Shown here in pieces: positions 22,968-60,469 of a stretch of DNA of 64,000 bases. This DNA is from Bacteroidota bacterium (GTDB lineage Bacteria; Bacteroidota; Bacteroidia; 2-12-FULL-35-15). The stretch spans positions 620,001 to 684,000 of the forward strand of contig JAQZBR010000002.1 in assembly GCA_029237775.1 (NCBI GenBank). The letters are read 5' to 3'. Position numbers and translations under genes: made by a program. The notes under the pieces are model-generated. The model did not search any database. It worked only from the letters and a program-made list of their open reading frames with translations, and was not told the DNA's origin. Numbering within the stretch: the first letter of the stretch is position 1; each line of letters begins with the position of its first letter.

Positions 22968-23032
22968 CAAAACTATCTGAGTAAAATATTATGCCAGCTA
23001 TTTTTCGGTGAGAGAAGTATTTTTTTCGGTGA
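22968..23032 (-). promoter_or_regulatory. repeat-type promoter of pgi
   Basis: The -7 box TAGTTTTG (minus strand, 22975-22968) fits TAnnTTTG. TCGGTGA occurs on the plus strand at 23005-23011 and again at 23026-23032, exactly 21 bp apart; the near copy lies 30 nt from the box. The start codon is 30 nt downstream of the box. See the finding on the shared architecture. Confidence 0.65.
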
Positions 23033-23176
23033 AAAAGGAAATCGGAATGGTAGCTAATCCTTGCCCATGCTTTGATCTCTGTTCTGGCACAAAGTTTTAA
23101 TTATCCCAAATAACTTAAATTAATATGGTGCTTGCGGGAAACTAAAAAGTGATTACCAGTTGTGAAATCAGTAAAC

Positions 23177-23241
23177 CCGGCTATCAATACTGTCCGTTTA
23201 CCGAAAAAAAGAAGTAGAAATAAAATCATCAAATAGATTTG
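23177..23241 (+). promoter_or_regulatory. repeat-type promoter of the 23264 gene and GH15
   Basis: CCGGCTA (23177-23183) and TTACCGA (23198-23204) are 21 bp apart; the second ends 30 nt before the -7 box TAGATTTG (23234-23241). The gene starts 30 nt after the box. There is no TTTG-type -33 box, as expected if an activator is needed. Confidence 0.65.
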
Positions 23242-23263
23242 CACAACCTAATTCAAAACCAAA

Positions 23264-23968
23264 ATGAAAAACATTGACATGAGAACAGGAACAAGCAGTT
23301 TTAAAAAAGGTATCTTTTTGTTATCTGCTTTTTGCATTAGTGCAGGTTTATATTCACAAACTGTTTATGATGACTTTGAAGGGAATAAGACTGTGCGGTA
23401 TTCCGCTAAGAATGGTGTTCTTGATACAACCAAGGCTAATCCGGCTCCAAATGATATTAATAAGTCTGCAAAATGCGCAATGTATGTTCGCAACAGGGCT
23501 CAAAAATTTGACAACATTAAAATGCCGCTGAATGGTAAACTTTCTGATGTGGCCAATTATGCTACGTATCTGGGTGTTCCTCCTAAACTTAAAATGAAAG
23601 TCTATACCACAGCCCCGGTAGGTACTATGGTGGAAATTCTTTTAGGTGACAAATTAATGAACAATACTTTTCCCGGAGGGACCAACAGTCAGTATCAGGC
23701 ACACACAACAGTGACCGGAGCCTGGGAAGAACTCGAGTTTAAATTTGCGCAGATTCCAGAGGGAAGTGAAACACCTACTACCGGTGTTGATCAGATCACA
23801 TTGCTCTTTAATCCAAACTCCGAAAGTTCTGATACATATTATTTCGATGACATAACAGGACCGGCAATTATTCCGATGGCAACCACGCCTGAGGTGAATA
23901 AAGATAAGAAGGGCACGACTGTAAGTCCGGACAAGAATAAAAAACCAACAACAGAGAATAAAAAATAA
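23264..23968 (+). CDS. secreted jelly-roll (CBM-like) protein
   Basis: 234 residues; a second Met at codon 6 is also possible. Signal peptide to about residue 31 (..GLYSQ), then a beta-rich domain starting TVYDDFEGNKTVRY and ending DTYYFDDITGPAI, the layout of galactose-binding-like jelly-roll modules found in carbohydrate-binding and glycanase proteins. A Lys/Thr-rich tail follows. It is a paralogue of the N-terminal part of the protein at 34401 (shared KLTDVANYAT/KLSDVANYAT and KLYTTAPVG/KVYTTAPVG), but has no T9SS domain. It precedes GH15 by 37 bp and probably forms an operon with it. Confidence 0.8.
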   Translation: MKNIDMRTGTSSFKKGIFLLSAFCISAGLYSQTVYDDFEGNKTVRYSAKNGVLDTTKANPAPNDINKSAKCAMYVRNRAQKFDNIKMPLNGKLSDVANYATYLGVPPKLKMKVYTTAPVGTMVEILLGDKLMNNTFPGGTNSQYQAHTTVTGAWEELEFKFAQIPEGSETPTTGVDQITLLFNPNSESSDTYYFDDITGPAIIPMATTPEVNKDKKGTTVSPDKNKKPTTENKK

Positions 23969-24005
23969 CTAAATATAAAACCCCACTTCTAATTAAACGA
24001 ATCCA

Positions 24006-26492: not shown

Positions 26493-26513
26493 CAAAACAA
26501 TTTATTACCGTTT

Positions 26514-26578
26514 TGAGCGACAGAAAAGCAGAGATCAACGAATATCCGGTAGTAAAAATTGAACAGGATTTAATTTTG
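26514..26578 (+). promoter_or_regulatory. repeat-type promoter of the receiver/TPR/barrel/GH26 operon
   Basis: TGAGCGA (26514-26520) and TCAACGA (26535-26541) are 21 bp apart; the second ends 30 nt before a perfect -7 box TAATTTTG (26571-26578). The ATG is 28 nt after the box. Confidence 0.6.
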
Positions 26579-26598
26579 AAGAATTAACGTTCCGTCAC

Positions 26599-27132
26599 AT
26601 GATGAATCGCTCTAATGAACTGTCGCTTTTTTTAGTTGATGATGATAAGTTGTTTCTTACATCTTTAAATCATCAGCTCCAAAGCATGTTCAGTGAAGCA
26701 AAGATTAAATGTTTCGCAACCGGGGAAGAATTTCTAAAGCACCTGAATAAAAAACCGGGAATCGTTCTTCTTGATTATAATCTTAACGGGAGTTACATCG
26801 ATGCCATGAATGGCATCGATGTCCTAAAGAGAATAATGCAGGAGAGTCCTGACACGAAGGTGATAATGCTTTCTTCCCAGGAAAAGATGGAAGTTGCAGT
26901 TGAGAGTATAAAATACGGAGCTTACGATTACATTATCAAAAACGATAATGTATTCATGAAAACCAGGCTGTCAATTATCAATGCATCTGATGCGCAAACG
27001 GTATCAAAGGAGTTGAAAAGTTTTAAGTCGATGTTAAAGGTGGTAGCCGTATTAGTTATTTTAATTATTACCGGCTGCTTGTTGTTACAAAAATATTACC
27101 CGGAAGTTTCAGGAGTTCAGGGCATAAAATAA
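26599..27132 (+). CDS. membrane-anchored response-regulator receiver protein (first of two)
   Basis: 177 residues. A complete receiver domain (8-125) has the acidic pocket Asp14-16, the phosphoacceptor Asp59 (VLLDYN), Ser92/93 and Lys114. There is no DNA-binding or enzymatic output domain. Instead, a linker leads to one hydrophobic helix (about 147-163, KVVAVLVILIITGCLLL) and a short tail, so the receiver should sit in the cytoplasm held by a C-terminal anchor. First gene of an operon with a similar protein, a TPR protein, a barrel and GH26. Receivers tethered this way are rare; the role may be to gate polysaccharide synthesis or export at the membrane. Confidence 0.85.
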   Translation: MMNRSNELSLFLVDDDKLFLTSLNHQLQSMFSEAKIKCFATGEEFLKHLNKKPGIVLLDYNLNGSYIDAMNGIDVLKRIMQESPDTKVIMLSSQEKMEVAVESIKYGAYDYIIKNDNVFMKTRLSIINASDAQTVSKELKSFKSMLKVVAVLVILIITGCLLLQKYYPEVSGVQGIK

Positions 27133-27146
27133 AAAGGAGATTAGGC

Positions 27147-27689
27147 ATGATAGCAAAGAGACCAAAACATATTTTTATTGTAGAAGATAACGAGATTTAT
27201 TCAATGATGCTTGATTACATTCTCTCAAAGGATAGTATATATCAGTTTGTGAGTTTTAAGTCAGGAGAAGAATGCATTGAGAATCTGTATTTAAATCCGG
27301 ATGTGATCATACTTGATTACGGTCTGCCGGGAATGAACGGATATGAAACACTGCTTGAGGTTAAAAAGAAGAATCCGAATATTCATGTAGTGATCCTTTC
27401 CAATAATGAAGATAAAAAGTTGAGGGCACAGCTTCTTGAAGCGGGTGCTGACGACTTTGTAATGAAGCAGGGACATGGAGAGAATCAGATCATTGACAAA
27501 ATAGAAGATATTTTAAGCAGGGATGAAATGCAGAAAAAGACCACTGAGCTAAAAAAGAAACCAATGGCCAAAGCAATGTATTTCGTGCTTGTTTTTGCCC
27601 TGTTAGCCCTTGGGATATTTATCACCCAGGCGGCAAAAAACAAATCCCACGACAAAGCAGGGGCCTCATATATGTATGAGAGTCACTAG
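27147..27689 (+). CDS. membrane-anchored response-regulator receiver protein (second of two)
   Basis: 180 residues with the same plan as the gene before it: receiver (8-125) with Glu13/Asp14, phosphoacceptor Asp57 (IILDYG), Ser85 and Lys107, then a Lys-rich linker, one hydrophobic helix (about 143-161), and a polar tail of ~19 residues. The pair is clearly divergent, so this is an old duplication. A good Shine-Dalgarno, AAGGAG (27134-27139), lies 7 nt before the ATG, which is uncommon in this phylum. No output domain is present. Confidence 0.85.
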   Translation: MIAKRPKHIFIVEDNEIYSMMLDYILSKDSIYQFVSFKSGEECIENLYLNPDVIILDYGLPGMNGYETLLEVKKKNPNIHVVILSNNEDKKLRAQLLEAGADDFVMKQGHGENQIIDKIEDILSRDEMQKKTTELKKKPMAKAMYFVLVFALLALGIFITQAAKNKSHDKAGASYMYESH

Positions 27690-27704
27690 AAAAGGAGAAT
27701 CGCC

Positions 27705-28904
27705 ATGAAGCCATTGTTATTTGTAATTACTTTACTGTTCACTTCCACAGTATATGCGCTTGATCATAACGGGATCATTGTGAAAACAGGTGAAGAGCAA
27801 AATACAGGCATTGATGGCCCGGCTACCGACAGCGATAAAGATTCTGCACAGGTTTACTATAAACGGGGCCTCGAAAAGAATGCAGCCAAAGAATATGGTC
27901 AGGCAATTCGTGATTTTAATAAAGCAATAAAATTCGATCCTACTCTTGGACCCGCATACATGTATCGCGCATACGCGAAACAACAGCTGATGGACTATAA
28001 ATCAGCACTGGCAGATTATAACCAGGCATTGAAATTAAAATTATCCTGGGAAGAAGCTTACGAAGCTTACTTTAACAAAGGACTCACACTTACAGCTCTT
28101 AGAAATATCAGGGAAGCAATGGCTGACTTTAACACCGCGATCAAGCTTAATCCTGATTATGCTGATGCATATTACAATAGAAGTGTTGTCAAGGGACGCA
28201 TTGGAGATTATCCGGGCGAGCTGGAAGATATCAACAAAGTGATTTCTTTGAGGCCGACTGATGACAACGCCTATAACAGCAGAGGAATTGTTAAATCAAT
28301 GATGGGTGATTATACCGGTGCCGTCACTGATTACGGAAAAGCTGTTGAGCTGAACCCTAAGAACAGCAACGCATTTTTTAATCGCGGAGTTGTTCTTTAT
28401 GAAATGGGAAAATATCTAGAAGCCTTGAACGACTACAACATGGCCATTCAGGTAAGTCCGGATCCGGAAATTTATAACAGGCGCGCAAATGTTAAATGCA
28501 GACTGAAGGATTTTCGCGGAGCATTTGATGATTACAACCAGGCAATTAAAATGGACACTAACAATTATGTGAGCTATCTGAACCGCGGTTATCTTAAGTA
28601 TGACCTGAAAGATTACAAATCGGCCATTGAAGATTACAATCAGGCTCTAAAAATCAGGCCGGATTATGCGATCGCTTATTATAACCGGGGACAGGCGAAA
28701 GGCAAAATGAATGATCTTAAAGGAGAGATCGAGGATTATAGCCGAGCAATTGAATTTAAGCCGGATTACGAAAACGCTTATATCGAAAGAGGCATGGCAA
28801 AATATGAAACAGGGGACCGGTCGGGAGGATGCGCAGATCTCAATCAGGCGGTGAAGCTGGGAAGTGACGAAGCCTATAACACACTCCTCGAATATTGTAA
28901 ATAA
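27705..28904 (+). CDS. periplasmic TPR-repeat protein
   Basis: 399 residues. Signal peptide (MKPLLFVITLLFTSTVYA), a short linker, then about ten tetratricopeptide repeats from about 48 to the end, each with the pattern AYYNRG..K...GDY..A..DYN.AI.L.P. Preceded by AAGGAG at 27692-27697. It is followed at once by an outer-membrane barrel gene. A periplasmic TPR protein beside a barrel recalls the two parts of BcsC/PgaA or the AlgK-AlgE pair, which export exopolysaccharides. That role is inferred from context only. Confidence 0.85.
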   Translation: MKPLLFVITLLFTSTVYALDHNGIIVKTGEEQNTGIDGPATDSDKDSAQVYYKRGLEKNAAKEYGQAIRDFNKAIKFDPTLGPAYMYRAYAKQQLMDYKSALADYNQALKLKLSWEEAYEAYFNKGLTLTALRNIREAMADFNTAIKLNPDYADAYYNRSVVKGRIGDYPGELEDINKVISLRPTDDNAYNSRGIVKSMMGDYTGAVTDYGKAVELNPKNSNAFFNRGVVLYEMGKYLEALNDYNMAIQVSPDPEIYNRRANVKCRLKDFRGAFDDYNQAIKMDTNNYVSYLNRGYLKYDLKDYKSAIEDYNQALKIRPDYAIAYYNRGQAKGKMNDLKGEIEDYSRAIEFKPDYENAYIERGMAKYETGDRSGGCADLNQAVKLGSDEAYNTLLEYCK

Positions 28905-28930
28905 CACATCTTAAATCTGAATTTACCATT

Positions 28931-29872
28931 ATGCTTAAAAATACAAGTACGCTAAAATTCTTTTTAATACTGTTCTTTTCTGTTGCATCCTTATCACAAA
29001 CTCTTGTTGCGCAGATCGAAGTTGAAGAAGAACCTAAGCGATTGTATTATGAACGGCTGAGGAGAGTAGACAACTTCTGGGACATGAAGGATATGAGAGA
29101 TGTAACTCATAAGGATCGCTTCCTGATGGGGAAAAACAGGATCTCAGGTAATATCACATATAACACGCAGCGCATTGTTCTCGATAACGGTCAAGAATTG
29201 CACAATGAATACAGAAGCGCGCTCGGTTTTTTTACACGAATCAGATTCTTTGAGCAATTCAGCTTTAACACAACATTCTATTACGATTTTAATCCAAAGG
29301 CCGCTGCCATATGGACCTCAAACTACACCTACTCCATCGGCAGATATAATTGGAAACCATACCGCTTTAATTACGGTTACGAAAATTACATCAACAACCG
29401 TTACAAGGATAATATTAAAGAGGTTGGCGATAAATTTCTCCAGGGTTACTATTTCCTTTCCTTCAGTCATCCCCTCTTTGACACGGTTCCAAAATTATTC
29501 AGGATCGATGAAAGTTCCTCTTTCAAGGTAACATACTTCGCACGTTATTCTATAAAATACATGGATAAATTCAACCATCTGAACGGTGGTCTGGATAATG
29601 GTAAATTTTACTTCGGTGCGGGTATGCGTTACACCATCTTTAAAAAGCTATATGTGGAAGGAGCTGTATACTATTACCCTGAGATGAGCAAAAAACAACC
29701 ATGGGACCCTGACTACAGTTATGGGCTGGGGTATTTTGACTGGCGCTCTTTCCGTCTTTCGTTCACTTACGGTAACTGGGCAGTTAATCGCTTCCCATGG
29801 AATAAGATGGAATATAAACGGTATGGCTTTCTCGATGGTAACTTCAGGATAACCTTTAACTGGATATGGTAA
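28931..29872 (+). CDS. outer-membrane beta-barrel protein
   Basis: 313 residues. The signal peptide ends at LVAQ. The mature protein shows many alternating, aromatic-rich strands (e.g. FFTRIRFFEQFSFNTTFYYD, FYFGAGMRYTIFKKLYVEGA) and ends in a last strand with a C-terminal Trp (RITFNWIW), the usual barrel-assembly signal. It might be a polysaccharide exit pore with the TPR protein. Its stop overlaps the start of the GH26 gene by 7 nt, so the two are translationally linked. Confidence 0.82.
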   Translation: MLKNTSTLKFFLILFFSVASLSQTLVAQIEVEEEPKRLYYERLRRVDNFWDMKDMRDVTHKDRFLMGKNRISGNITYNTQRIVLDNGQELHNEYRSALGFFTRIRFFEQFSFNTTFYYDFNPKAAAIWTSNYTYSIGRYNWKPYRFNYGYENYINNRYKDNIKEVGDKFLQGYYFLSFSHPLFDTVPKLFRIDESSSFKVTYFARYSIKYMDKFNHLNGGLDNGKFYFGAGMRYTIFKKLYVEGAVYYYPEMSKKQPWDPDYSYGLGYFDWRSFRLSFTYGNWAVNRFPWNKMEYKRYGFLDGNFRITFNWIW

Positions 29873-31518
29873 CCCGACATACCATAGGATCAATCTATTT
29901 CCTGCTCATTGTTTGCCTTTTTCCGATCCATTCAAATGCACAGCTTAAATTTGTTATTGAAGATTTTGAAGGGCTTGACTATGGCGCAGCTGATCTCAAG
30001 CCCCATGGGATGTTTGTGTACGGAAATGTTCACGCTTATGTTGATGGAACCATGTCGGTACCACAGGCTTATTCCGGAGAGCGTTCAATTAAAATAGTCA
30101 AAGAAGGGGCTGTAAAATATGGAGGCTGGGGAAAAGGGATCAGCATGAACGTTGAGCTTGATGTGACGAAAGATTATTTCAATTTTTATATCTACTCTCC
30201 TGTTTCAAATGGCCCTACAGAAGTCAAAGTTGAAATTCAGGAAGACGATAATTCAGATAACACTTATAACAAAAACCTTGATGATTCATGGATTGCCACA
30301 TTGCGCATAGAAGCAAAAAACAGCTGGCAACTGATTTCTGTTCCACTTACTACGTTCAAAGACAATAACGAAGGTGGTGATGACGGATTTAACGTGAGCT
30401 ACAAAAATGGCAAGCTCCTGGCGATGAACTTTTCCTACGATGAAAAAAGTAAAAATAATTTGAGCTGGTCGTTTGACTTTTTATGCCTTTCACAGGGAAC
30501 GCTCCCTACAGGCTCCGAGATTTTTTCTGCCCCTTCAGCACAACCTTCTGACTTCTGCAGCCTTGGGCTTTGGTCCAATGAAGGAAACACAGGCAATTTC
30601 ACCGCGATCGCTACAAACTTTGAAAACAGCTTTAAATACGGCATAGACAAAAACCTGGGCGTCATTCATTTTTTTCAACCTTTTGCATTTGATGGTGGTA
30701 ACACCGAAAACTCTTATCCGTCTATTGAGCGGATCAACAAGGTAATACACTCGGGTTATATTCCGATGATCACGTTGGAAGATCACTTCGTTAATTCAAA
30801 ACCAAATGTAAGACAACCCAATCTGTACAGCATTATAGAAGGCCATTTCGATCAATTCTTTGCACAGTGGGCAAAAGAAATAAAGCGCGCAGACGGAATC
30901 GTACTCTTGAGGATCTTACATGAATTCAATGGAGACTGGTACCCATGGTGCACAATTAATAATGACAGGAATCCGGAACTGGTGGTAAAAGCTTACCGAC
31001 ATATTCATGACATATTTAAAGCTCAGCAGGTTCACAACGTAAAATTCATCTGGTGTCCCAATTCAATGTCTTTGCCTCAGGAAAAATGGAATTTCATTAT
31101 GGAAGCATTTCCCGGGGATGAATACGTTGATTACGTAGCTCTTGATATTTACAACGGAGCCGGAAAAGGAACCCCCGTGTGGCGTTCGTTTCGAAAAGAA
31201 GGAATAGAGAATTATTTTGTTTTGAATCAAAGACTCGCGCATAAACCATTGCTTATATGTGAAGCTGCATCGAGAGAGCGGGAATCATCAGAATCGAAGA
31301 GCGGCCAGGATAAAGCAGAATGGATCCGACAAATGTCACAGGCTCTTAGTACAGATATGTCCAAAGTTAGATTGCTTACGTGGTTCAATGAAAAAGGAAC
31401 ATTTAAAATAACATCCTCACCCAATGCTCAACATTCTTATCTGAATAACGTGTTGAAGAATAATTACTTTAGATCAGGCTCAGGTGAATTACTACAATTC
31501 ATTAAAAGCAAAAATTAA
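29866..31518 (+). CDS. secreted GH26-like glycoside hydrolase with an N-terminal CBM-like domain
   Basis: 550 residues. Signal peptide (..IHSNA), then a jelly-roll domain (about 28-208) opening FVIEDFEGLDYG, similar to CBM11-type modules, then a (beta/alpha)8 catalytic domain. The general acid/base is probably Glu353 in ILHEFNGDWYPW and the nucleophile Glu466 in LLICEAAS, both in GH26-like contexts. GH26 enzymes act on beta-mannans, beta-1,3-1,4-glucans or related chains. In this operon it may trim the exported polymer, as BcsZ or AlgL do in other systems (inference). A terminator follows. Confidence 0.85.
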   Translation: MVTRHTIGSIYFLLIVCLFPIHSNAQLKFVIEDFEGLDYGAADLKPHGMFVYGNVHAYVDGTMSVPQAYSGERSIKIVKEGAVKYGGWGKGISMNVELDVTKDYFNFYIYSPVSNGPTEVKVEIQEDDNSDNTYNKNLDDSWIATLRIEAKNSWQLISVPLTTFKDNNEGGDDGFNVSYKNGKLLAMNFSYDEKSKNNLSWSFDFLCLSQGTLPTGSEIFSAPSAQPSDFCSLGLWSNEGNTGNFTAIATNFENSFKYGIDKNLGVIHFFQPFAFDGGNTENSYPSIERINKVIHSGYIPMITLEDHFVNSKPNVRQPNLYSIIEGHFDQFFAQWAKEIKRADGIVLLRILHEFNGDWYPWCTINNDRNPELVVKAYRHIHDIFKAQQVHNVKFIWCPNSMSLPQEKWNFIMEAFPGDEYVDYVALDIYNGAGKGTPVWRSFRKEGIENYFVLNQRLAHKPLLICEAASRERESSESKSGQDKAEWIRQMSQALSTDMSKVRLLTWFNEKGTFKITSSPNAQHSYLNNVLKNNYFRSGSGELLQFIKSKN

Positions 31519-31811: not shown

Positions 31812-32207
31812 TTAAGATGATTTATTCTCGCGTTTTGCATCAATGCTCATGGTTGCGTGCGGTACACTTCTCAGACGCTCTTTAGGAATAAGTTTTCCCG
31901 TAACCCTGCACACACCGTAAGATTTATTTTCAACACGGATAAGCGCATTTTGAAGATGTTCAATAAACTTCTCCTGACGTGCCGCTAACTGAGCGGTTTC
32001 TTCTTTTGAAAGAACGTCCGCTGCGTCTTCCAGTAATTTAAATGTTGGGGATGTATCATTTGTGCCGTGATCGTCCTGCAGTGTCAAAGAGCTTCGTAAA
32101 AGTTCATAATCCGATTTCGCCTCTTCCAGCTTTGATACAATCAGCTCTTTAAACTCTTTTAATTCCTCATCGGAGTAACGGTCTTTCGTTTCATTCTTAT
32201 TTTCCAT
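31812..32207 (-). CDS. TraR/DksA family regulator with degenerate zinc finger
   Basis: 131 residues: an N-terminal coiled coil (about 10-95), then YGVCRVTGKLIPKERLRSVP near the C terminus, the conserved block of the Bacteroidota TraR/DksA proteins. Of the usual four zinc-binding cysteines only one remains (Cys98), so zinc binding is unlikely. DksA-like proteins bind the RNA polymerase secondary channel and modulate transcription, often with ppGpp. The upstream DNA carries the 21-bp repeat promoter, so it may be co-regulated with the polysaccharide genes. Confidence 0.9.
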   Translation of the reverse strand: MENKNETKDRYSDEELKEFKELIVSKLEEAKSDYELLRSSLTLQDDHGTNDTSPTFKLLEDAADVLSKEETAQLAARQEKFIEHLQNALIRVENKSYGVCRVTGKLIPKERLRSVPHATMSIDAKRENKSS

Positions 32208-32248: not shown

Positions 32249-32313
32249 CGAAATTATATCTACTTTATGCCATATGAATTTAAATTCGTTCAGAACCGAT
32301 TTTCTGTAGCCAT
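32249..32313 (-). promoter_or_regulatory. repeat-type promoter of the dksA-like gene
   Basis: The -7-like box TAATTTCG (minus, 32256-32249; one mismatch to TAnnTTTG) is 30 nt from TCGTTCA (plus strand 32286-32292), which is 21 bp from TAGCCAT (32307-32313). The start codon is 49 nt past the box. Confidence 0.5.
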
Positions 32314-32424
32314 AAGGTGCAGGTTTACAAGCAGAAAAATCTTATAAACACAATATACACTCGGGGGTACTTTCCAATGGCAGACACGTTGTTGGGGAAC
32401 CAAATCCCCAGGACCCTTATTTAA

Positions 32425-32473
32425 TAGCCAAAGACCGGGAAAGAATAGCCAAAATCTGTTAAAAAATAGGTGA
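32425..32473 (+). promoter_or_regulatory. triple 21-bp-spaced repeat array 1
   Basis: TAGCCAA (32425), TAGCCAA (32446) and TAGGTGA (32467) lie in the same orientation at exact 21-bp steps, each after AAT or AAAT. No TAnnTTTG box is found at the usual 30-31 nt on the near side, so the promoter it serves is unclear. Confidence 0.5.
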
Positions 32474-32515
32474 TTCAACAACTTATGGGGAGTGCTGCCG
32501 TTTTCATATAGTCAA

Positions 32516-32564
32516 TCGTTAAAAAGGGAAAAACAATAGTTGAGAGCCGGAAAAAAATAGCCGG
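32516..32564 (+). promoter_or_regulatory. triple 21-bp-spaced repeat array 2
   Basis: TCGTTAA (32516), TAGTTGA (32537) and TAGCCGG (32558) are spaced by 21 bp and end 48 nt before the start of the gene at 32613. A weak -7-like TAAGTTGT (minus, 32485-32478) is at 31 nt on the dksA side. It may serve either neighbour. Confidence 0.5.
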
Positions 32565-32612
32565 TATTTATAAAGAAAAATCCCTTTTAAATATTAATCT
32601 AAAACAGAAAAA

Positions 32613-34400: not shown

Positions 34401-35258
34401 TTATTTAGAGACGATCATTTTCATTGAACGTGAAGTCCCTTCTTTTTTCAAAACATAGAAATAAATTCCATTTGGTATTTCGCGGGGGTCAAAAGGAACA
34501 GAATATATTCCTGCTTTCATATTTTGTTCAAGCAGAGAAGCTACCGGATTTCCAACCATATCATAGAGTTTCAGCGATACCGGTCCGGCCGAATTTAACT
34601 GAAAATTAATTTTTGTTATTTCTTTAACCGGGTTCGGAGTATTTTGATATAACTTAAACCCTCCCACCGACTCCAGTACCGGTACTGCTACTGGCGCTAC
34701 TGTCGGCCCGCTGAGGTCATCGATATAATACGTGTCCGAAGTCACCGTGTTGGGTCTGAACAGAACAACCACTTTATCAACATTGTTAGAAGCGACTGCA
34801 CTTCCTGCCGGGATCTGAGCAAAGTTGAAAGTCAACTGCTGCCATCCGTTCTGTACCGTGGTAGTGGCCGTGTACTCACTGTGTACTCCTGCAGGATAGG
34901 ATGTGATAGTGCCGGACCCTAACTGTAGCTGAATCAATGAACCTACAGGTGCGGTGGTGTAAAGTTTCATTTTGATCTTTGCTGCTCCGTTGCTTGTTGC
35001 ATAGTTCGCGACATCGGTTAGTTTGTTATTTGCATGAATTTGCAGGTTATCATATAACATCGTGTCCCTTTGGTATTTTGCGCAATGCAAACTATTGTTA
35101 ATCATGTCCGTTGCCGGATTGTTGAATATACTGTCCAGAGTACCGGAATAAAACCCGAAGTATGATGACTTTGTCCCCTCAAAGTCATTATAATTCTGTT
35201 GTGCTATAGATGTGCGGTAAATCATCAGTAATAATATTAATAGTATGAGTTTTTTCAT
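34401..35258 (-). CDS. T9SS-exported jelly-roll (CBM-like) protein
   Basis: 285 residues. Signal peptide (..TSIAQ), then a jelly-roll-like domain (about 20-195) that is a paralogue of the protein at 23264, starting NYNDFEGTKSSYF and ending DTYYIDDLSGP. The C-terminal ~75 residues are a type A T9SS sorting domain (LYQNTPNPVKEITKINFQL, LYDMVGNPVASL, PNGIYFYVLK). Likely a secreted or surface glycan-binding protein. Its promoter has the 21-bp repeats. Confidence 0.83.
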   Translation of the reverse strand: MKKLILLILLLMIYRTSIAQQNYNDFEGTKSSYFGFYSGTLDSIFNNPATDMINNSLHCAKYQRDTMLYDNLQIHANNKLTDVANYATSNGAAKIKMKLYTTAPVGSLIQLQLGSGTITSYPAGVHSEYTATTTVQNGWQQLTFNFAQIPAGSAVASNNVDKVVVLFRPNTVTSDTYYIDDLSGPTVAPVAVPVLESVGGFKLYQNTPNPVKEITKINFQLNSAGPVSLKLYDMVGNPVASLLEQNMKAGIYSVPFDPREIPNGIYFYVLKKEGTSRSMKMIVSK

Positions 35259-35315: not shown

Positions 35316-35380
35316 CAAAGTTAAGGCATCGAAGGAGGGTTTCGGGCGGTATTCGGTGAGCGGGGATTTAAAATCGTTAA
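35316..35380 (-). promoter_or_regulatory. repeat-type promoter of the 34401-35258 gene
   Basis: The -7 box TAACTTTG (minus, 35323-35316) is 30 nt from TCGGTGA (plus 35353-35359), which is 21 bp from TCGTTAA (35374-35380). The start codon is 65 nt past the box. Confidence 0.65.
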
Positions 35381-35466: not shown

Positions 35467-35532
35467 CTGGCATACAAAAACAGGCGTTCACCGAAAACTG
35501 GCACAAATCTTTACAAAGCATCGATAGGTTTG
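35467..35532 (+). promoter_or_regulatory. repeat-type promoter of the GT4-GH57-kinase operon
   Basis: CTGGCAT (35467-35473) and TCACCGA (35488-35494) are 21 bp apart; the second ends 31 nt before the -7 box TAGGTTTG (35525-35532). The ATG is 37 nt past the box. It shares the 303-bp gap with the divergent promoter at 35316. Confidence 0.62.
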
Positions 35533-35561: not shown

Positions 35562-36842
35562 ATGAAAAACAGTCAGCCAAAAGTCTTAATGTTAGGGTGG
35601 GAATTTCCTCCAATAATCAATGGTGGATTAGGTGTGGCATGTCATGATCTTTCTAGTGCAATGTCCGAGCTGGCCAATATTACCATGATCATCCCGAAGT
35701 CAAGTCCTGATTTCAAAATGAAGAACATGAATCTTGTCGGGATCAACAATCTTGATGTAAATGAATACGGATCAATGGAATCCAATGAAAAGCTTCCATT
35801 TGACCTTAAAACGATTCCTGCAGACCTGAATCCGTATTATATGGAGGAGCCTTTCCAGGAAGGAAAAGAAAATAATTCTCAAAATTCAAATTTCAGTGGA
35901 AAAGTATCCCCGTTCGATATAGATAACCTATACGGTGGTGATGTCATAAGTAAAGTAATGCAGTATGCTGAAATAACAGCTAATCTGGCTTCTAAGATGG
36001 ATTTTGATGTTATTCATGCTCACGACTGGATGACTATGCTTGCCGGAATGAAGATCAAGCAGCGTACAGGCAAACCGCTGATCATGCATATCCATTCCCT
36101 GGAAGTGGATCGTAGCGGTGTTGACAGTAAAGGATGGGTTTATGAGCTTGAAAAAAAAGGAATGGAATACGCGGATCTACTGATCCCTGTAAGCAATTTC
36201 ACAGCCTCCAATATTCACAAATATTACGGCATCAGCATGGATAAGATGTCTGTTGTGCACAATGGCAGCAACAAAGTTAAATCCTTTAAGAGTAAAAGAA
36301 GATTCAAAGAAAAAACCGTTCTGTTTGTCGGTCGCCTGACTCGCCAGAAAGGACCTGAAAAGTTTTTGGATATAGCAGCTAAAGTTTTGGAAACAAACCC
36401 TGACGTTCGTTTTGTAATGGCCGGTGTGGGAGATTATTTCAAATCAATGCTTGAACAAAGCGCTTACCAGCATATTGGCAACCGCTTTCACCTTACCGGT
36501 TTTTTAAATCAGGAAAAACTTAAATATTTGTTTTCTGTCAGCGATGTATATTGTATGCCCTCAGTATCAGAGCCTTTCGGTTTATCTGCTGTTGAAGCCG
36601 CACAATTCGGCATTCCCTGCGTTATCTCTAAGCAGTCAGGTGTTGCTGAAGTGCTTAACGGTTCATTAAAATTCGACTTCTGGGATATTAATAAAGCCGC
36701 GGGATGCATTTTGAACCTTCTTCACGATCCGATCTTAAGAAAAAAAGTAGTTGAAGATGCTTCCGAAAATCTTAACAATATTACTTGGGATCTGTCTGCT
36801 AAGAAAATAATTGATGCTTACGCATCAAGAAAATTCATATAA
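35562..36842 (+). CDS. GT4/GT5-like glycosyltransferase (glycogen-synthase-like)
   Basis: 426 residues with a GT-B fold. The N-terminal loop WEFPPIINGGLGV resembles the glucosyl-donor loop of glycogen synthases. The donor-binding EX7E pair is Glu337 and Glu345 (SEPFGLSAVEA), after VLFVGRLTRQKGPEKF. It has an unusual polar insert (about 65-120). A cytosolic enzyme that probably extends an alpha-glucan. First gene of an operon with GH57 (17 bp downstream) and a BadF-like kinase. Exact donor and product unknown. Confidence 0.88.
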   Translation: MKNSQPKVLMLGWEFPPIINGGLGVACHDLSSAMSELANITMIIPKSSPDFKMKNMNLVGINNLDVNEYGSMESNEKLPFDLKTIPADLNPYYMEEPFQEGKENNSQNSNFSGKVSPFDIDNLYGGDVISKVMQYAEITANLASKMDFDVIHAHDWMTMLAGMKIKQRTGKPLIMHIHSLEVDRSGVDSKGWVYELEKKGMEYADLLIPVSNFTASNIHKYYGISMDKMSVVHNGSNKVKSFKSKRRFKEKTVLFVGRLTRQKGPEKFLDIAAKVLETNPDVRFVMAGVGDYFKSMLEQSAYQHIGNRFHLTGFLNQEKLKYLFSVSDVYCMPSVSEPFGLSAVEAAQFGIPCVISKQSGVAEVLNGSLKFDFWDINKAAGCILNLLHDPILRKKVVEDASENLNNITWDLSAKKIIDAYASRKFI

Positions 36843-36859
36843 TCATAATACAAATCAAT

Positions 36860-38152
36860 ATGCCATCAATCTGCTTTTACTTCCAGGTGCATCAGCCTTT
36901 CCGTCTGAGAAATTATTCATTTTTTGATATCGGCCAGTCCGATTCTTATGAAGATGATAAATTGAATGAAGAGGTACTAAACAAAGTATCGGAAAAATGC
37001 TACATCAAGACAAACCGAAAGATGCTCGAGTTAATTCAGCGTCATCAGGGGAAGTTCAGAATCAGTTATTCTATCAGCGGAACAGCTATCGAACAATTTG
37101 AGAAATACCGTCCGGATGTTTTGCAGTCGTTTATTGACCTTGCAAACACGGGATGTGTGGAATTCCTTTCCGAGACCTATTCTCACTCTTTAAGCTTCAT
37201 ACACTCTAAGGATGAATTTCAGCGTCAGGTAAAAAAACATTCTGATGTCATAAAAAAATATTTCAATCAAACTCCACGTGTATTCAGAAATACCGAGCTT
37301 ATCTTTAACAATGAACTCGCTTCATTTATCGAAGGCATGGGCTATGACGGTATTGTTTGTGAAGGGGTTGACCGTTTATTGGGAAGCCGCACACCTAACT
37401 TCCTTTATAATTCAGTAAATACCGGTAAGATAAAGCTCCTTCTAAAAAACTATCGTTTGTCAGATGATATCGCATTCCGCTTCTCAGATCGCGGTTGGAA
37501 AGAATTCCCTTTAACGATCGACAGATACGCACAGTGGGTGCATAGCATTGCGGGCAACGGAGATACCGTTAATCTGTTTATGGATTATGAAACATTCGGT
37601 GAACATCAGTGGGAATCAACAGGGATCTTTAATTTCCTTGATGCGTTACCGGCTGAAATTATGAAACATCCGGATTTCAATTTTAAAACTCCTTCCGAAG
37701 TGATCGATTCTTACCCGGCAAGGGATACCTACGATGCTCACGATTTTATTTCCTGGGCGGATATGGAACGCGATCTTTCTGCATGGCTCAGCAATTCAAT
37801 GCAGCAGGAAGCGATGAAACGTATTTACTCACTTGAAAGTGAAGTGAAAGCATGTAATGATCCGCAAATATTGAATATCTGGGAGCGTCTGCAGACTTCA
37901 GATCACTTCTACTATATGTGCACTAAGTTTTGGAACGATGGTGACGTGCATAAATACTTCAGCCCGTACGACTCTCCTTATGATGCATACTTATACTTTA
38001 TGAATGTATTCAGTGATCTTGAATGCAGAGTTAAAGCTTTGAGAAAAAAGTCAAAAAAAGAGATGATCCGGAGTTTAAAACGCCCGAGCGCAGGATCGAG
38101 AATTATTGAAGCAAGGGTTGTTACAAGTGCAGAAGAACTATATTCACATTAA
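36860..38152 (+). CDS. GH57 family alpha-amylase-like hydrolase
   Basis: 430 residues. GH57 conserved regions: HQP at 11-13, the likely nucleophile Glu146 in FRNTELIF, and the likely acid/base Asp242 in FMDYETFGEH. There is no signal peptide, so it acts in the cytosol. Family members are amylases, branching enzymes or glucanotransferases. Placed between a glycogen-synthase-like enzyme and a sugar kinase, it may trim or transfer alpha-1,4-glucan. Confidence 0.9.
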   Translation: MPSICFYFQVHQPFRLRNYSFFDIGQSDSYEDDKLNEEVLNKVSEKCYIKTNRKMLELIQRHQGKFRISYSISGTAIEQFEKYRPDVLQSFIDLANTGCVEFLSETYSHSLSFIHSKDEFQRQVKKHSDVIKKYFNQTPRVFRNTELIFNNELASFIEGMGYDGIVCEGVDRLLGSRTPNFLYNSVNTGKIKLLLKNYRLSDDIAFRFSDRGWKEFPLTIDRYAQWVHSIAGNGDTVNLFMDYETFGEHQWESTGIFNFLDALPAEIMKHPDFNFKTPSEVIDSYPARDTYDAHDFISWADMERDLSAWLSNSMQQEAMKRIYSLESEVKACNDPQILNIWERLQTSDHFYYMCTKFWNDGDVHKYFSPYDSPYDAYLYFMNVFSDLECRVKALRKKSKKEMIRSLKRPSAGSRIIEARVVTSAEELYSH

Positions 38153-38178
38153 TAGCCTGGCATAAAACCTCGAAGGGT

Positions 38179-39036
38179 ATGATTTTAATAGCAGACAGCG
38201 GTTCAACAAAAACAGATTGGCGTTTAATTGACAATAAAAACAACACCTATAACTTCCACACAATTGGGTTCAATCCGTATTTCCAGGATTCAACTTCAAT
38301 TGCCAGGGAACTGAATACTCATCTGGAACCATCCATCTCAGCTCTTCAGCTGGATCAGGAAAAAGAGTTTAACATCTATTTTTATGGAGCCGGTTGTTCC
38401 AGTACTGAAAAATGCGATATCGTTAAAACAGCGATCAGTGAGGTTTTCCCTAATGCTGATATATTTGTGGAACACGATCTTTTGGCTGCAGCCCGCGCCT
38501 TATGCGGCAACACCGAAGGGATAGCAGCTATCATGGGCACAGGCTCAAACTCATGTTATTATGATGGGAATAAAATCGCTGCCAATGTTTCTTCTCTTGG
38601 ATATATTTTAGGTGATGAAGGTAGCGGTGCTTACATAGGTAAACATTTTATCCAGGACTATCTGAACAAAGAATTACCTGCAAAAATAGCTGACAGTTTT
38701 GACGCGACTTACAATTTAAGCAAAGAGAAAATTTTGAATGCTGTGTATAAAGAGCCTATGCCGAGCAGATTTTTGGCTTCTTTCAGTAAATTCATAAATC
38801 AGAATAAGCACGAGGAATACTTTAAAGATCTTGTTAAATTTAATTTTAATCAGTTCTTTGTAAAGCATATTTGCAAGTATGACAATCATCAAAAAGTACA
38901 TCTTTCTTGTGTTGGATCAGTTGCATTTCACTACCGCGATACACTTCAGGAGGTTGCAAACTCAAAAGGGGTTCAACTCAACAAGGTTATTGATTCCCCA
39001 ATTACCGATCTCACAAAGTTTCATCTGAATAAATAA
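38179..39036 (+). CDS. BadF/BcrA-type ATPase, N-acetylglucosamine-kinase-like
   Basis: 285 residues. The actin/hexokinase-like ATPase fold is marked by ADSGSTKTDWRL at the N terminus (phosphate 1), IAAIMGTGSNSCYY (phosphate 2) and LGYILGDEGSGAYIG. Bacteroidota proteins of this length are usually annotated as GlcNAc kinase-like. It is the last gene of the GT4-GH57 operon, followed by a terminator. Substrate is inferred from family, not shown. Confidence 0.85.
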   Translation: MILIADSGSTKTDWRLIDNKNNTYNFHTIGFNPYFQDSTSIARELNTHLEPSISALQLDQEKEFNIYFYGAGCSSTEKCDIVKTAISEVFPNADIFVEHDLLAAARALCGNTEGIAAIMGTGSNSCYYDGNKIAANVSSLGYILGDEGSGAYIGKHFIQDYLNKELPAKIADSFDATYNLSKEKILNAVYKEPMPSRFLASFSKFINQNKHEEYFKDLVKFNFNQFFVKHICKYDNHQKVHLSCVGSVAFHYRDTLQEVANSKGVQLNKVIDSPITDLTKFHLNK

Positions 39037-41645: not shown

Positions 41646-41732
41646 CAAAATTACGTGCCTGCTCAGGCATTATTTTCTTAAAATCGCTAAGAATGCCTTT
41701 TAGCTCGTTGAAAAAATATTTATGAAGGCCGG
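41646..41732 (-). promoter_or_regulatory. repeat-type promoter of the STAS-GT2 operon
   Basis: The -7 box TAATTTTG (minus, 41653-41646) is 31 nt from TCGCTAA (plus 41684-41690), followed at 21-bp steps by TCGTTGA (41705-41711) and a weaker AGGCCGG (41726-41732). The start codon is 35 nt past the box. Confidence 0.65.
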
Positions 41733-49338: not shown

Positions 49339-50040
49339 TTAGATCAGATTTAGTTTGGCAAGTAATTCTTTTTTGAATTGTTTACCGATCGGAATAGGGT
49401 GCTGTCCGATGTATGCTGTCCCCTCTTCGACTCCATCAACGCAATCAAGTGACACAAGGAATGAGCGGTGCAAACGATAAAATTTATCAGCAGGAAGCTT
49501 TTCTTCTATTCCTTTTAAGGTGATGTGGGCAGTATATCGTTTTTCACGGGTAAAAATGTTTACATAATCCCCCAACGCCTGAATGTAAATGATATCGTTA
49601 ACCTTGATCTTTGTCAAAACTGAGTTTGATCTCACAAATATGTAATCCTTTTCACGTGCGCTCAGGTCAGGCTTAAGCTGATCAACGTTTTCATGCAATT
49701 TTTTTGCGCGGTCGATTGCCAACATTAAGCGTGGCAATGTTACCGGCTTTGTCATATAATCCGCAACATTTAATTCAAATGCTTCAACGGCATAATCTTT
49801 TTTAGCCGAGATAAGAATTACGATCGGGCGCTTCTCAAGGTTTTTGATAAGTTCGATACCTGTCATTCCCGGCATTTCCACATCAAGGAAAACAAGATCG
49901 ACAGCTTCCTTTTTCAGATAGTTGTAAGCATCTACCGGGCTTGAACATTCTTCTTTTACAGCAAGAAAATCAACCTGATCTGTAAGTTTTTTAAGGGCCG
50001 TACGAGCCATCTTGTTATCATCTACGATTAAACAGTTCAT
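49339..50040 (-). CDS. LytTR-family response regulator
   Basis: 233 residues. Receiver domain with Asp7/Asp8, phosphoacceptor Asp53 (VFLDVEMPG), Ser78 and Lys98, then a LytTR DNA-binding domain (about 130-230) with YIFVRSNSVLTKI, IIYIQALGDYVNIFT and FYRLHRSFLVSLD. LytTR proteins usually bind two direct repeats about two helical turns apart. It heads the operon with a receiver, an OmpA protein and a phosphohexomutase. It is a candidate for the factor that reads the 21-bp repeats in this window, but no cognate kinase is present and its own promoter lacks the repeats. Confidence 0.93.
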   Translation of the reverse strand: MNCLIVDDNKMARTALKKLTDQVDFLAVKEECSSPVDAYNYLKKEAVDLVFLDVEMPGMTGIELIKNLEKRPIVILISAKKDYAVEAFELNVADYMTKPVTLPRLMLAIDRAKKLHENVDQLKPDLSAREKDYIFVRSNSVLTKIKVNDIIYIQALGDYVNIFTREKRYTAHITLKGIEEKLPADKFYRLHRSFLVSLDCVDGVEEGTAYIGQHPIPIGKQFKKELLAKLNLI

Positions 50041-50935: not shown

Positions 50936-51000
50936 CAAAGTTAGTTCGCTTCTTATAAGCTTTATAGCTATTTCGCCCAAAGGTAATCCTGTGTCGGCAG
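50936..51000 (-). promoter_or_regulatory. repeat-type promoter of yceI
   Basis: The -7 box TAACTTTG (minus, 50943-50936) is 30 nt from TCGCCCA (plus 50973-50979), followed at 21 bp by TCGGCAG (50994-51000). The half-sites are weaker than elsewhere. The start codon is 37 nt past the box. Confidence 0.5.
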
Positions 51001-51086: not shown

Positions 51087-51152
51087 TCAACGACAGGCGG
51101 TTTCGCTTCACCGAATTTGAGGCGGTTAGGGCTCTTTTAACGCATAACTTTG
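51087..51152 (+). promoter_or_regulatory. repeat-type promoter of the 47-residue protein
   Basis: TCAACGA (51087-51093) and TCACCGA (51108-51114) are 21 bp apart; the second ends 31 nt before TAACTTTG (51145-51152). A possible third, TCAAGAT, is at 51066. The ATG is 44 nt past the box. Confidence 0.65.
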
Positions 51153-51378: not shown

Positions 51379-51611
51379 GCGCTTTATAATTTAGTGTGAT
51401 CATGCTTTATGAACCCCAAGTTCTGGTAAGTTTTGTAAAAGTCATTATCTAACAGTTAGAAAATAGTTGAAGCAGACGAATTTCCTTCGTAGAAAAAACT
51501 TTCCTGCTTTACGCTACAATCTTCTTGTGAAAAATAAAAAGGATTTCCACTACAATCGGGGCTATAAAAAACATCAATTTGGTAATTATGCTAAATTTCG
51601 GCAGACGCAAA

Positions 51612-51652: not shown

Positions 51653-51726
51653 TGATCCCGGCGCGATTCGAACGCGCGACCTACTGCTTAGAAGGCAGTT
51701 GCTCTATCCAGCTGAGCTACGGAATC
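51653..51726 (-). tRNA. tRNA-Arg (TCT)
   Basis: The acceptor arms GATTCCG and CGGGATC pair (one G-T), the D arm reads TAGCTCAGCTGGATAGAGC, and the T loop is GTTCGAATC. The anticodon stem-loop CTGCCTTCTAAGCAG gives anticodon TCT. 74 nt; CCA is not encoded. Confidence 0.95.
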
Positions 51727-52373: not shown

Positions 52374-52390
52374 CCCCGCGAAAAGCGGGG
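52374..52390 (-). terminator. terminator after tRNA-Ser
   Basis: CCCCGC (52374-52379) pairs with GCGGGG (52385-52390), with a T run on the minus strand. Confidence 0.75.
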
Positions 52391-52409
52391 CTTTATTTAA
52401 TGCAGTCTG

Positions 52410-52496: not shown

Positions 52497-52632
52497 ATTC
52501 CTTTTGTTTCAAAGGACTGCAAATGTAGAAAAAGATTCTTTAATCCAAAACAAAAAAAGACAAATTCAGTTTGTCATTTCCCCGGAGCCCTTATCAATTA
52601 TCAATTTTATAGCTTTAATGAAAAGGTAATAT

Positions 52633-52640
52633 TATATTTG
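52633..52640 (+). promoter_or_regulatory. -7 box of the peptide transporter operon
   Basis: TATATTTG matches TAnnTTTG and lies 34 nt before the start at 52667. There is no 21-bp repeat half-site 30-31 nt upstream. Confidence 0.4.
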
Positions 52641-52666
52641 CCTCAATACAAAATCGAAAGATAATT

Positions 52667-54553: not shown

Positions 54554-54562
54554 TAAAGATCA

Positions 54563-57396: not shown

Positions 57397-57397
57397 A

Positions 57398-57808
57398 CTA
57401 TTTCTTCTTTCTGTGAATCATATCTGACAACTGTTCAGTAAACCTATCCAATTCTAAAGCAGATTTCTTGATCATCCCCAGCATTTTTTTCATTTCAATT
57501 GCATCATTCTCAAGCTCCAGTAAATTAGCAATACCAAGCAAATGTGCCACCGGTTGCCTTATCTTATGAGAGATGACAAACATAAGGTCCTCCATATCCC
57601 CAACATGAAGATCCTGGTAATCATTCGCCTTTTGTAATTCTGCATTTGTATCTATAAGTTCCTCTGCACGTTTTTCTTTTTCATCTTGCTCGAAAACAAG
57701 TTCACTGTTAGACTTTGATAATTCCTCAGCACATTTCAATAGAGCTCTGTGCAGAAGTATCAAATTATTATGAGCTTCCAATAATTCTCTTACTTTTTTC
57801 TCATTCAT
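57398..57808 (-). CDS. orphan histidine-kinase dimerisation (DHp) domain protein
   Basis: 136 residues: a coiled coil (about 1-68), then a HisKA-like helical pair with the H-box FVISHKIRQPVAHLLG (His81) and a second helix rich in Leu/Lys. The protein ends before any ATP-binding (HATPase) domain, and no such domain is encoded downstream. It could be a phosphotransfer protein like Spo0B, or a decoy for a kinase or receiver. Convergent with the permease gene, one base apart. Confidence 0.78.
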   Translation of the reverse strand: MNEKKVRELLEAHNNLILLHRALLKCAEELSKSNSELVFEQDEKEKRAEELIDTNAELQKANDYQDLHVGDMEDLMFVISHKIRQPVAHLLGIANLLELENDAIEMKKMLGMIKKSALELDRFTEQLSDMIHRKKK

Positions 57809-57943
57809 TTGTTTGAATTCAAGCTGGAATTAACCAGCAAATGTTTAAAACTTCCTTATTTATAAGCTAATTCTGTTGGGCAATTACATAAGTTTATCTA
57901 AACTAATGTGCCTTATCATTAAAAGACATACTTAATAAAAAAG

Positions 57944-59314
57944 ATGAATATTCATTTAATAGCAATCGGTGGAAGTGCAATGCATAACATGGCACTTGCC
58001 ATGCACAAAAAAGGTTATAAGGTAAGCGGTTCGGATGACGAGATCTTTGAACCTTCAAAATCAAGATTGGAAAAAGCAGGGTTACTTCCGGCAAAGGAAG
58101 GATGGGATGTAAATAATATTCACGATGGCCTGGATGCGATCATACTTGGTATGCACGCGCGTTCGGACAACCCCGAGCTTTTGCGTGCACAGGAATTGGG
58201 ATTGAAGATCTATTCGTATCCGGAATACATTTACGAACAAACAAAAGATAAGGTAAGAGTGGTTGTTGGAGGAAGCCATGGAAAGACAACAATTACCGCA
58301 ATGATCCTGCATGTTCTTGAACACTGTAAAATAAACTGTGATTATATGGTTGGAGCACAGCTTGCCGGATTCGACACCATGGTAAAGCTTAGCCAGGAAG
58401 CTAAGATTGCGGTTATTGAAGGTGATGAATATTTATCCTCACCGATCGACCGCAGGCCTAAATTTCATTTATACAAACCAGACATTGCTATTCTGAGCGG
58501 AATTGCATGGGATCACATCAATGTATTTCCAACATTTGATAACTATATTGAACAATTCAGGATCTTTACAGGGTTGATCGAACCAAATGGAACCATTGTT
58601 TACTGTGAGCTTGATCCTGAAGTAAAAAACGTTTGTGAAGCTGTCCGCCCCGACATAAAAAAATTCCCTTACGGAATCCCTGCTCATAAAATTGAAAATG
58701 GAACAACTATCCTCACGGAAACAGGTTTGCCTGATGCTGCATGTGCGCTCGAAATTTTTGGAGATCATAACCTTATGAATATGAACGGTGCGCGGTTAGT
58801 GTGTAACCAATTGGGAGTTAGTGATGGTCAATTTTATGATGCGATTAAAAGCTTTAAAGGTGCATCAAAACGACTTGAGCTTGTCAGCAGAAATGAAAGC
58901 ACAGCAGTTTATAAAGACTTTGCCCACTCACCTTCAAAATTAAAAGCGACAACACTCGCAGTGAAAAAGCAATTTCCCGATCGTAAATTATTAGCCTGCA
59001 TGGAGCTGCATACCTTCAGCAGTCTTAATGAGAATTTCCTTCGTGAGTATAAGGGTTCAATGGCTGTGGCTGATGAGGCAATTGTTTATTTTAACTCTCA
59101 TACTATTGAGCACAAAAAATTAAAACCGATAACTGAAGACCAGGTGAAGCAAGCCTTCGGAGGCGATAACATTAAGGTCTTCACAGATTCAGCAGCGCTT
59201 TTAAAACATCTGGAGGGTGTGGACTACAGAAATAAAAACCTCCTGCTGATGAGCTCAGGAAATTTTGACGGAATTGATTTTAAGCAACTCGGGGATAAAG
59301 TTATTTCATCATAA
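57944..59314 (+). CDS. mpl: UDP-N-acetylmuramate:L-Ala-gamma-D-Glu-meso-DAP ligase
   Basis: 456 residues with the Mur-ligase fold: an N-terminal Rossmann part (IHLIAIGGSAMHNMALAM), the P-loop GGSHGKTT (109-116), the central EGDEYLSSPIDRRPKF region, and the C-terminal YKDFAHSPSKLKATT. Mpl joins recycled murein tripeptide to UDP-MurNAc. MurC also has this fold, but EGDEY and the HARSDNPEL segment fit Mpl. Confidence 0.92.
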   Translation: MNIHLIAIGGSAMHNMALAMHKKGYKVSGSDDEIFEPSKSRLEKAGLLPAKEGWDVNNIHDGLDAIILGMHARSDNPELLRAQELGLKIYSYPEYIYEQTKDKVRVVVGGSHGKTTITAMILHVLEHCKINCDYMVGAQLAGFDTMVKLSQEAKIAVIEGDEYLSSPIDRRPKFHLYKPDIAILSGIAWDHINVFPTFDNYIEQFRIFTGLIEPNGTIVYCELDPEVKNVCEAVRPDIKKFPYGIPAHKIENGTTILTETGLPDAACALEIFGDHNLMNMNGARLVCNQLGVSDGQFYDAIKSFKGASKRLELVSRNESTAVYKDFAHSPSKLKATTLAVKKQFPDRKLLACMELHTFSSLNENFLREYKGSMAVADEAIVYFNSHTIEHKKLKPITEDQVKQAFGGDNIKVFTDSAALLKHLEGVDYRNKNLLLMSSGNFDGIDFKQLGDKVISS

Positions 59315-59477
59315 GTTCAGCCACTGAATTTCCTTTTTCAGCAATTAAATTCCACGTTTAAACCCCAGATAAAGCTTTTTTGGGGAGATTTTTTCACACC
59401 AGAACAAACACCTCCTTGTTAATAAAGGGCTTCCCGCAATGGCATATTTTATGGAAATACCATAGAAAAAAACATCC

Positions 59478-60386
59478 ATGGAAACCTTTAACATTAAAAA
59501 GATCTTAGTGCCTGTTGATTTCTCTGAAACTTCAATGAAAGCGCTTGATCATGCCGTGTATATCGCGAAACTTAACACTGCAGACATTACTCTTCTTAAT
59601 GTTGTTGAGAGTACATATTCTTACGCTCCTTCAACCGACTATACAGCTCTTGCTTTCACAAACATGGAAACGTATGAGAAAGAAATTCAGAAGCAGGCAA
59701 AGGACCATATCCTTAAGCTGGCTCAAAAGATCAAGAAGAAAGAAGGAGTGAATATCATTGGCATTGTTTCCAAAGGCTGGGTAAAAGAGGAAATACTTGA
59801 TGCTGCAAGAAGTATGAGAGCCGATATTATTATCATGGGGACACATGGTGTAAAAGGGTTTCGTGAGTTCATTACGGGAAGCAATACCTTCCGTGTTGTC
59901 AACGAAGCGCAATGTCCGGTGCTGTCGGTTCAAAAGGATGCAGTAACACCCGGATTCAAAAACATTCTTGTTCCATTCCGGGACAAACCACACTCGCGTG
60001 AGAAAGTAGATTATGCAATCAAAATGGCGGAGCTGTATGGCGCTAAAATATTTGTACTGGGAATTGATATGGATGATGACGAAGGTCAGTTAAAAAAAAT
60101 AGAGCTTGAGGCTGCCCAGATAAAGAGGATCATAGAAAAGCACGGATTAAAATGCACGGTAAAAGTTAAATCAAGTCCTTATCTGGCAGAAAAGATCCTT
60201 AAATACGCAAAGAAGAAAGGCATAGATCTGATAGTGATAATGGCTGATCTTGACAGGATGCAGGTTTCCGAATTTTTCATGGGCCCTTTTGCACAGCAGA
60301 TGGTGAATCATTCTCCAATTCCGGTTTTAAGCATCCGACCAACATTCAACCCTAACACAGTTGACCTGGGCGGTTACGGCTGGTAA
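59478..60386 (+). CDS. tandem UspA-domain universal stress protein
   Basis: 302 residues with two UspA folds. The first (about 5-155) has ILVPVDFSETSMKALDHAV and the ATP-binding-type IIMGTHGVKGFREFITGSN; the second (about 158-295) has NILVPFRDKPHSREKVDYA and a degenerate end (MADLDRMQVSEFFMGPFA) without the G2xG9GS motif. A cytosolic stress protein; it may be under separate control from the next gene. Confidence 0.9.
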   Translation: METFNIKKILVPVDFSETSMKALDHAVYIAKLNTADITLLNVVESTYSYAPSTDYTALAFTNMETYEKEIQKQAKDHILKLAQKIKKKEGVNIIGIVSKGWVKEEILDAARSMRADIIIMGTHGVKGFREFITGSNTFRVVNEAQCPVLSVQKDAVTPGFKNILVPFRDKPHSREKVDYAIKMAELYGAKIFVLGIDMDDDEGQLKKIELEAAQIKRIIEKHGLKCTVKVKSSPYLAEKILKYAKKKGIDLIVIMADLDRMQVSEFFMGPFAQQMVNHSPIPVLSIRPTFNPNTVDLGGYGW

Positions 60387-60403
60387 CCATACAAAACAGA
60401 TTT

Positions 60404-60469
60404 TCGGCTATCAAAAGTGCCGGATTAACGAAACTTGAAATAAAACAACGTTATCACAAAATATATTTG
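60404..60469 (+). promoter_or_regulatory. repeat-type promoter of the 86-residue protein
   Basis: TCGGCTA (60404-60410) and TTAACGA (60425-60431) are 21 bp apart; the second ends 31 nt before TATATTTG (60462-60469). A third candidate, GTAACCA, lies 21 bp upstream (60383-60389), within the end of the UspA gene. The ATG is 62 nt past the box. Confidence 0.65.

Follow-up and report, generated by a model that had tools for sequence, protein, structure and literature searches.

Direct repeats at ten promoters of a Bacteroidota gene cluster resemble the operator of a LytTR-type response regulator

Introduction

The operators of LytTR regulators consist of two repeats of 9-11 nt that lie 11-13 nt apart and have no common consensus (PMC4847170). 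Their spacing is mostly 12 bp, they are placed just upstream of the promoter or upstream of the -35 element, and they occur with autoregulation (PMC6193735); a consensus of WMMGTTNRK has been given (PMC8826819). In Bacteroidota, the sigma-A promoter is marked by a -7 box, TAnnTTTG, spanning positions -12 to -5 (PMC9723704). Limited searches of the open literature returned no defined LytTR operator in Bacteroidota, nor the motif described here.

This study concerns a 64,000-nt stretch of the genome of an uncultured Bacteroidota bacterium (contig JAQZBR010000002.1, positions 620,001 to 684,000), called the window below, in which an initial annotation had noticed heptamer repeats, phased at 21 bp, upstream of TAnnTTTG boxes at ten promoters. 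The repeats share the geometry of LytTR operators, with 9-nt halves, a 12-nt spacer and a 21-bp period (definition in PMC4847170), and also their placement, the near half ending 29-30 nt before the -7 box. Agreement with WMMGTTNRK (PMC8826819) is partial, with the GTT-like core on the non-coding strand: the reverse complements ATCGTTAA and ATAGTTGA fit at most positions and TTCGGTGA and ATAGCCGA less, in a family without a common consensus (PMC4847170). It is proposed that the architecture can be named as an operator of the LytTR response-regulator type, and a gene for a LytTR regulator sits inside the cluster.

Results

Ten operator-promoters

A direct read of the window found all ten pairs of repeats and box where they had been annotated. 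They are listed with their scores under a matrix trained solely on other genomes, and with the related genomes that keep the site.

22968-23032, minus strand: operator-promoter of pgi (21113-22945); box T 22975, near half end 23005; score 29.7; kept in G018 and G009
23177-23241, plus strand: operator-promoter of gene 23264, 5' of the GH15 gene 24006; box T 23234, near half end 23204; score 35.1; kept in G009, G018, G015 and G008
26514-26578, plus strand: operator-promoter of the receiver operon 26599-31518; box T 26571, near half end 26541; score 34.0; kept in G009 and G018
32249-32313, minus strand: operator-promoter of the dksA-like gene (31812-32207); box TAATTTCG, T 32256, near half end 32286; score 34.0
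35316-35380, minus strand: operator-promoter of gene 34401; box T 35323, near half end 35353; score 40.1, the best in the window; kept in G009 and G018
35467-35532, plus strand: operator-promoter of the GT4-GH57-BadF-like operon 35562-39036; box T 35525, near half end 35494; score 15.2; kept, its upstream half improved, in G018, G009 and G008
41646-41711, minus strand: operator-promoter of the STAS gene and the GT2 gene 39396; box T 41653, near half end 41684; score 26.8; kept in G009
50936-51000, minus strand: operator-promoter of the yceI-like gene 50322; box T 50943, near half end 50973; score 23.2; kept in G009 and G018
51087-51152, plus strand: operator-promoter of the 47-aa gene 51189; box T 51145, near half end 51114; score 21.9; kept in G009 and G018
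60404-60469, plus strand: operator-promoter of the 86-aa gene 60524; box T 60462, near half end 60431; score 36.9

All ten sites were among the 12 best window matches of this matrix (scores 15-40), and the reversed-sequence control of the window topped out at 9.4. The annotated sequences needed some qualification: the box is exact at nine of the ten sites but reads TAATTTCG at dksA, and the half-sites are in place, but the upstream half at GT4 is degenerate (CTGGCAT) and both halves at yceI are weak (CTGCCGA and TGGGCGA). In two close relatives the GT4 upstream half is CTGGCTA and CCGGCTA.

The secreted proteins 23264-23968 and 34401-35258, both under the operator, are related, and their family is a recurrent target in relatives. 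The former had no Pfam match and the latter was matched solely in its sorting tail.

Motif anatomy and spacing

The half-site is TYRVCKAWW, and a 9-nt repeat with a 12-nt spacer gives the period of 21 bp, an A/T tract lying between the halves. Positions left free by the pattern were also conserved, namely a T before each half, four A/T at +7 to +10, CC at +13/+14 and an A after CGA. An inverted repeat (TTCGG upstream and CCGAA downstream in the strongest sites) was considered and rejected; many upstream halves are TCAACGA or TCACCGA, so that direct repeats better describe the set.

Phasing was sharp, with 15 same-orientation half-site pairs at 21 bp in the window against 0-5 at the other spacings from 14 to 45 bp. 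In loci fetched around homologues of the cluster's regulator, the 21-bp spacing accounted for 242 pairs and its neighbours, 20 bp and 22 bp, for 29 and 18, with a lesser excess at 42 bp, as expected from triple arrays (below). Some of these pairs are background, since the reversed-sequence control was raised as well, with 99 pairs at 21 bp and 83 at 42 bp.

The distance from the near half to the box was also fixed, with a gap of 29 or 30 nt (78 and 73 strong matches, respectively), and the median distance from box to ATG was 43.5 nt (124 sites). The box stands before genes, as in the Bacteroidota sigma-A promoter, and if it starts at -12 (PMC9723704) the near half ends around -42, a position that suits contact with the polymerase. 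A CGA ends 30 or 31 nt before only 9 of the 59 TAnnTTTG boxes of the window, so the motif tags a subset of promoters. A -33 element was visible neither at the motif sites nor in a rough set of control promoters, and its lack was dropped as a distinguishing trait of motif promoters since the controls were equally without it.

Distribution within and beyond the genome

The bipartite pattern matched ten times in the window, compared with a mean of 0.33 and a maximum of 3 in 60 second-order Markov simulations. Across the genome (4.08 Mb) there were 33 matches, and these bunch in one 41 kb neighbourhood (window 22970-60467) rather than being scattered, with 11 of the 33 inside it (binomial p 1.7e-14, for a pattern that had itself been derived from these sites). 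Reversal of the pattern gave 62 matches genome-wide, so most matches outside the neighbourhood are background; strong sites elsewhere in the genome precede receiver-like genes on C3 and C5 (L121, L122). In 1.7 Mb of loci fetched around regulator homologues, window included, there were 181 matrix matches as against 6 in reversed sequence, and in the fetched loci the window's own pattern gave 86 matches as against 22 for the reversed pattern.

Comparison of orthologues found the heptamers conserved in most of the orthologous upstream regions. Among G009, G018, G008 and G015, the site is kept before orthologues of pgi, 23264, the receiver gene, 34401, GT4, STAS, yceI and the 47-aa gene, and the spacer sequences differ between orthologous sites that keep the motif. 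G008 had no match before its pgi and receiver gene orthologues. In the same comparison, a site of this form was absent upstream of GH15, 32613, 41845, 43600 and the receiver gene 48958. A matrix scan of the fetched loci located sites before dksA orthologues in L110, L113 and L115, and an orthologue of the 86-aa gene 60524 was absent from the stretches fetched.

Two triple arrays lie in the window upstream of gene 32613, without a good box:

32422-32474, minus strand: three half-sites at a 21-bp period, oriented opposite to gene 32613
32513-32565, minus strand: another three half-sites with the same period and likewise opposite to gene 32613

Similar arrays occur before homologues of 32613 in L110 and L113, and in relatives they are also found away from dksA.

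A LytTR regulator as the candidate binder

The LytTR domain was the sole recognised transcription-factor DNA-binding domain in the window genes that were scanned, the DksA-like zinc-finger protein being regarded here as a polymerase-binding factor. The LytTR gene is as follows:

49339-50040, minus strand: response regulator with receiver and LytTR domains, the protein proposed to bind the repeats (Pfam Response_reg 2.7e-23, LytTR 8.3e-19)

Both domains of its product exceed the Pfam curated cut-offs, and the sequence FYRLHRS fits the conserved LytTR motif FhRhHRS (PMC4227749).

The occurrence of sites followed that of this regulator in comparisons where regulator identity and genome relatedness are correlated. 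Within the genus, 6-18 strict matches were counted in each genome whose homologue reaches about 63% identity or more and 0-4 in the other 15 (p 1.6e-5), with no difference in controls. In the class, 247 genomes were compared; five or more matches occur in three of them, and these same three alone encode a homologue of at least 68% (p 4e-7), while G197 has no strict match despite a 63% homologue. Site density dropped with regulator identity: it was 16.4 per 100 kb where identity was 60% or more, and 0 where it was below 36%. Inside the loci, the density of sites was 8.4-fold higher at distances of up to 400 bp from the regulator gene (p 3e-17). Several regulator genes in the relatives' loci carry a site in their own promoter; the window regulator has none in its own.

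The link between site and regulator holds in Chitinophaga, Niastella and Flavisolibacter, the target that follows the regulator-kinase pair being variable. In Chitinophaga and Flavisolibacter the order is regulator, hybrid kinase and then a site after the kinase gene, and hybrid kinases adjoin the regulator in Chitinophagaceae relatives. No cognate histidine kinase adjoins the window regulator; the window has just a weak HisKA fragment, at 57398.

RNA-like sequences

Flavisolibacter-like genomes contain a conserved RNA-like sequence, CTTGGTTTCGTATGGTTAAGGGTGAAGCCCTG, with a terminator-like stem, mostly right after a LytTR-type operator:

L069 13728, L072 13743, L074 13423, L075 13711 and L077 5712, plus strand: RNA-like sequence CTTGGTTTCGTATGGTTAAGGGTGAAGCCCTG
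L078 13401, L079 13411, L080 13468, L081 13490 and L064 6581, plus strand: RNA-like sequence CTTGGTTTCGTATGGTTAAGGGTGAAGCCCTG

Within it, one segment of about 32 nt is invariant and the stem varies through compensating changes. It had no Rfam match, and is a candidate for a conserved small RNA governed by this operator. In Chitinophaga (L059-L061, about 13470, plus strand) the site that follows the LytTR-kinase pair is succeeded not by the RNA but by a small secreted protein, rich in Lys, Ala and Pro and about 59 aa long. In the window, an Rfam Flavo-1 RNA (62 bits) was found at 51496-51567 (minus strand), adjoining three tRNA genes at 51653, 51895 and 52410, also on the minus strand.

Discussion

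The ten promoters carry a motif of set phasing and fixed distance to the -7 box, which is conserved and tied to one regulator subfamily. Quite likely, the repeats serve as operator for a response regulator of the LytTR type. The 49339-50040 product is the most probable one, and it would activate a local regulon at sigma-A promoters. Once phosphorylated, two molecules of the regulator would occupy the pair of direct half-sites, which lie on the same DNA face at a distance of 21 bp, and the fixed spacing would hold them immediately upstream of RNA polymerase at the TAnnTTTG promoters. The initial annotation had pictured two same-face half-sites just upstream of the -33 region, and this fits the evidence; binding as a dimer, by this product and in its phosphorylated form, and activation rather than repression in response to a signal, are what we infer.

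It is unlikely that the repeats, as LytTR operators, are mainly bound in this genome by another LytTR protein, such as the 68% identical paralogue at C3:106318 or another of the regulator's matches, or by several such proteins sharing the site. There are 32 matches to the regulator in this genome, not all of which need carry LytTR, and paralogues in relatives likewise have adjoining sites (L050, L055); however, the nearest regulator is the one in the cluster, and two relatives in which the cluster sites persist encode it with 93-94% identity, whereas the matrix scan found no site near C3:106318 (L120). That a transcription factor of another type, encoded elsewhere, binds the repeats, its distribution merely coinciding with that of the LytTR subfamily, seems distinctly improbable on these sequence comparisons. 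Tandem direct repeats are also used by regulators of the OmpR/PhoB type, but those of OmpR type recur at about 11 bp rather than the 21 bp seen here, and the sites crowd around a LytTR gene inside the loci of several families.

It is very improbable indeed that the repeats are an intrinsic promoter feature (a UP-like element) or copies of a spread repeat, with no specific regulator. The fixed distance to the TAnnTTTG box and the A/T tract in the middle would suit such an origin, yet the repeats occur at a minority of boxes and are missing from most genomes of the class, their C, G and A positions are base-specific, and the spacers are unrelated between sites and between orthologues. Chance and a spread repeat had been considered as sources of the pattern and were discarded on the simulations, the matrix from other genomes and the diverged spacers of orthologues.

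Under the LytTR-type operator, the regulator would activate genes for polysaccharide synthesis and hydrolysis, and for secreted, signalling and small stress-like proteins. In the window the sites precede pgi, the GT4-GH57 operon, STAS-GT2, secreted proteins, receivers, the DksA-like and YceI-like genes and small proteins; the targets in relatives, as read from their sequences, also include hybrid kinases, a sugar nucleotidyltransferase and YtxH-like small proteins. The regulon first annotated, of polysaccharide synthesis, hydrolases, a DksA-like factor and small stress-like proteins, was broadly right but lacked the signalling genes, that is, the receivers, STAS and, in relatives, the hybrid kinases and the regulator. 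This gene content suggests a surface polysaccharide and stress programme. More tentatively, and with somewhat less than even confidence, a LytTR subfamily across several families of Bacteroidota may share a rigid code (21-bp repeats and a 29/30-nt gap to TAnnTTTG), with targets rewired by lineage, ranging from clusters for polysaccharides and signalling to a so far undescribed small RNA, and with the triple arrays in reverse orientation providing another mode of control.

These genomes are rich in LytTR-type regulators (32 matches to the 49339-50040 regulator in this one). By naming the operator, the probable regulator and the geometry of the promoter, a matrix would make such regulons readable from sequence in uncultured species. 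The cultured relatives Chitinophaga, Niastella and Flavisolibacter are indicated as test systems, and co-regulation gives small genes without a known function an initial functional lead.

Among described systems, the box at the motif sites is the same element as in the Bacteroidota sigma-A promoter, of which the upstream repeats are no part (PMC9723704). The operators of E. coli YpdB, S. aureus AgrA and S. mutans HdrR/BrsR are two direct repeats just upstream of the promoter, as here. The 21-bp period is shared with YpdB, whose site GGCATTTCAT is repeated with 11 nt between, and with HdrR (9 + 12), and the autoregulation of LytTR operators is paralleled by the sites at regulator genes in several relatives. 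Unlike those operators, the sites described here have their own half-site, TYRVCKAWW, with the GTT-like core on the opposite strand, and they belong to Bacteroidota sigma-A promoters, at least ten of them in one cluster, accompanied by triple arrays. The operator and its regulon are real and new, and most likely of the known LytTR kind.
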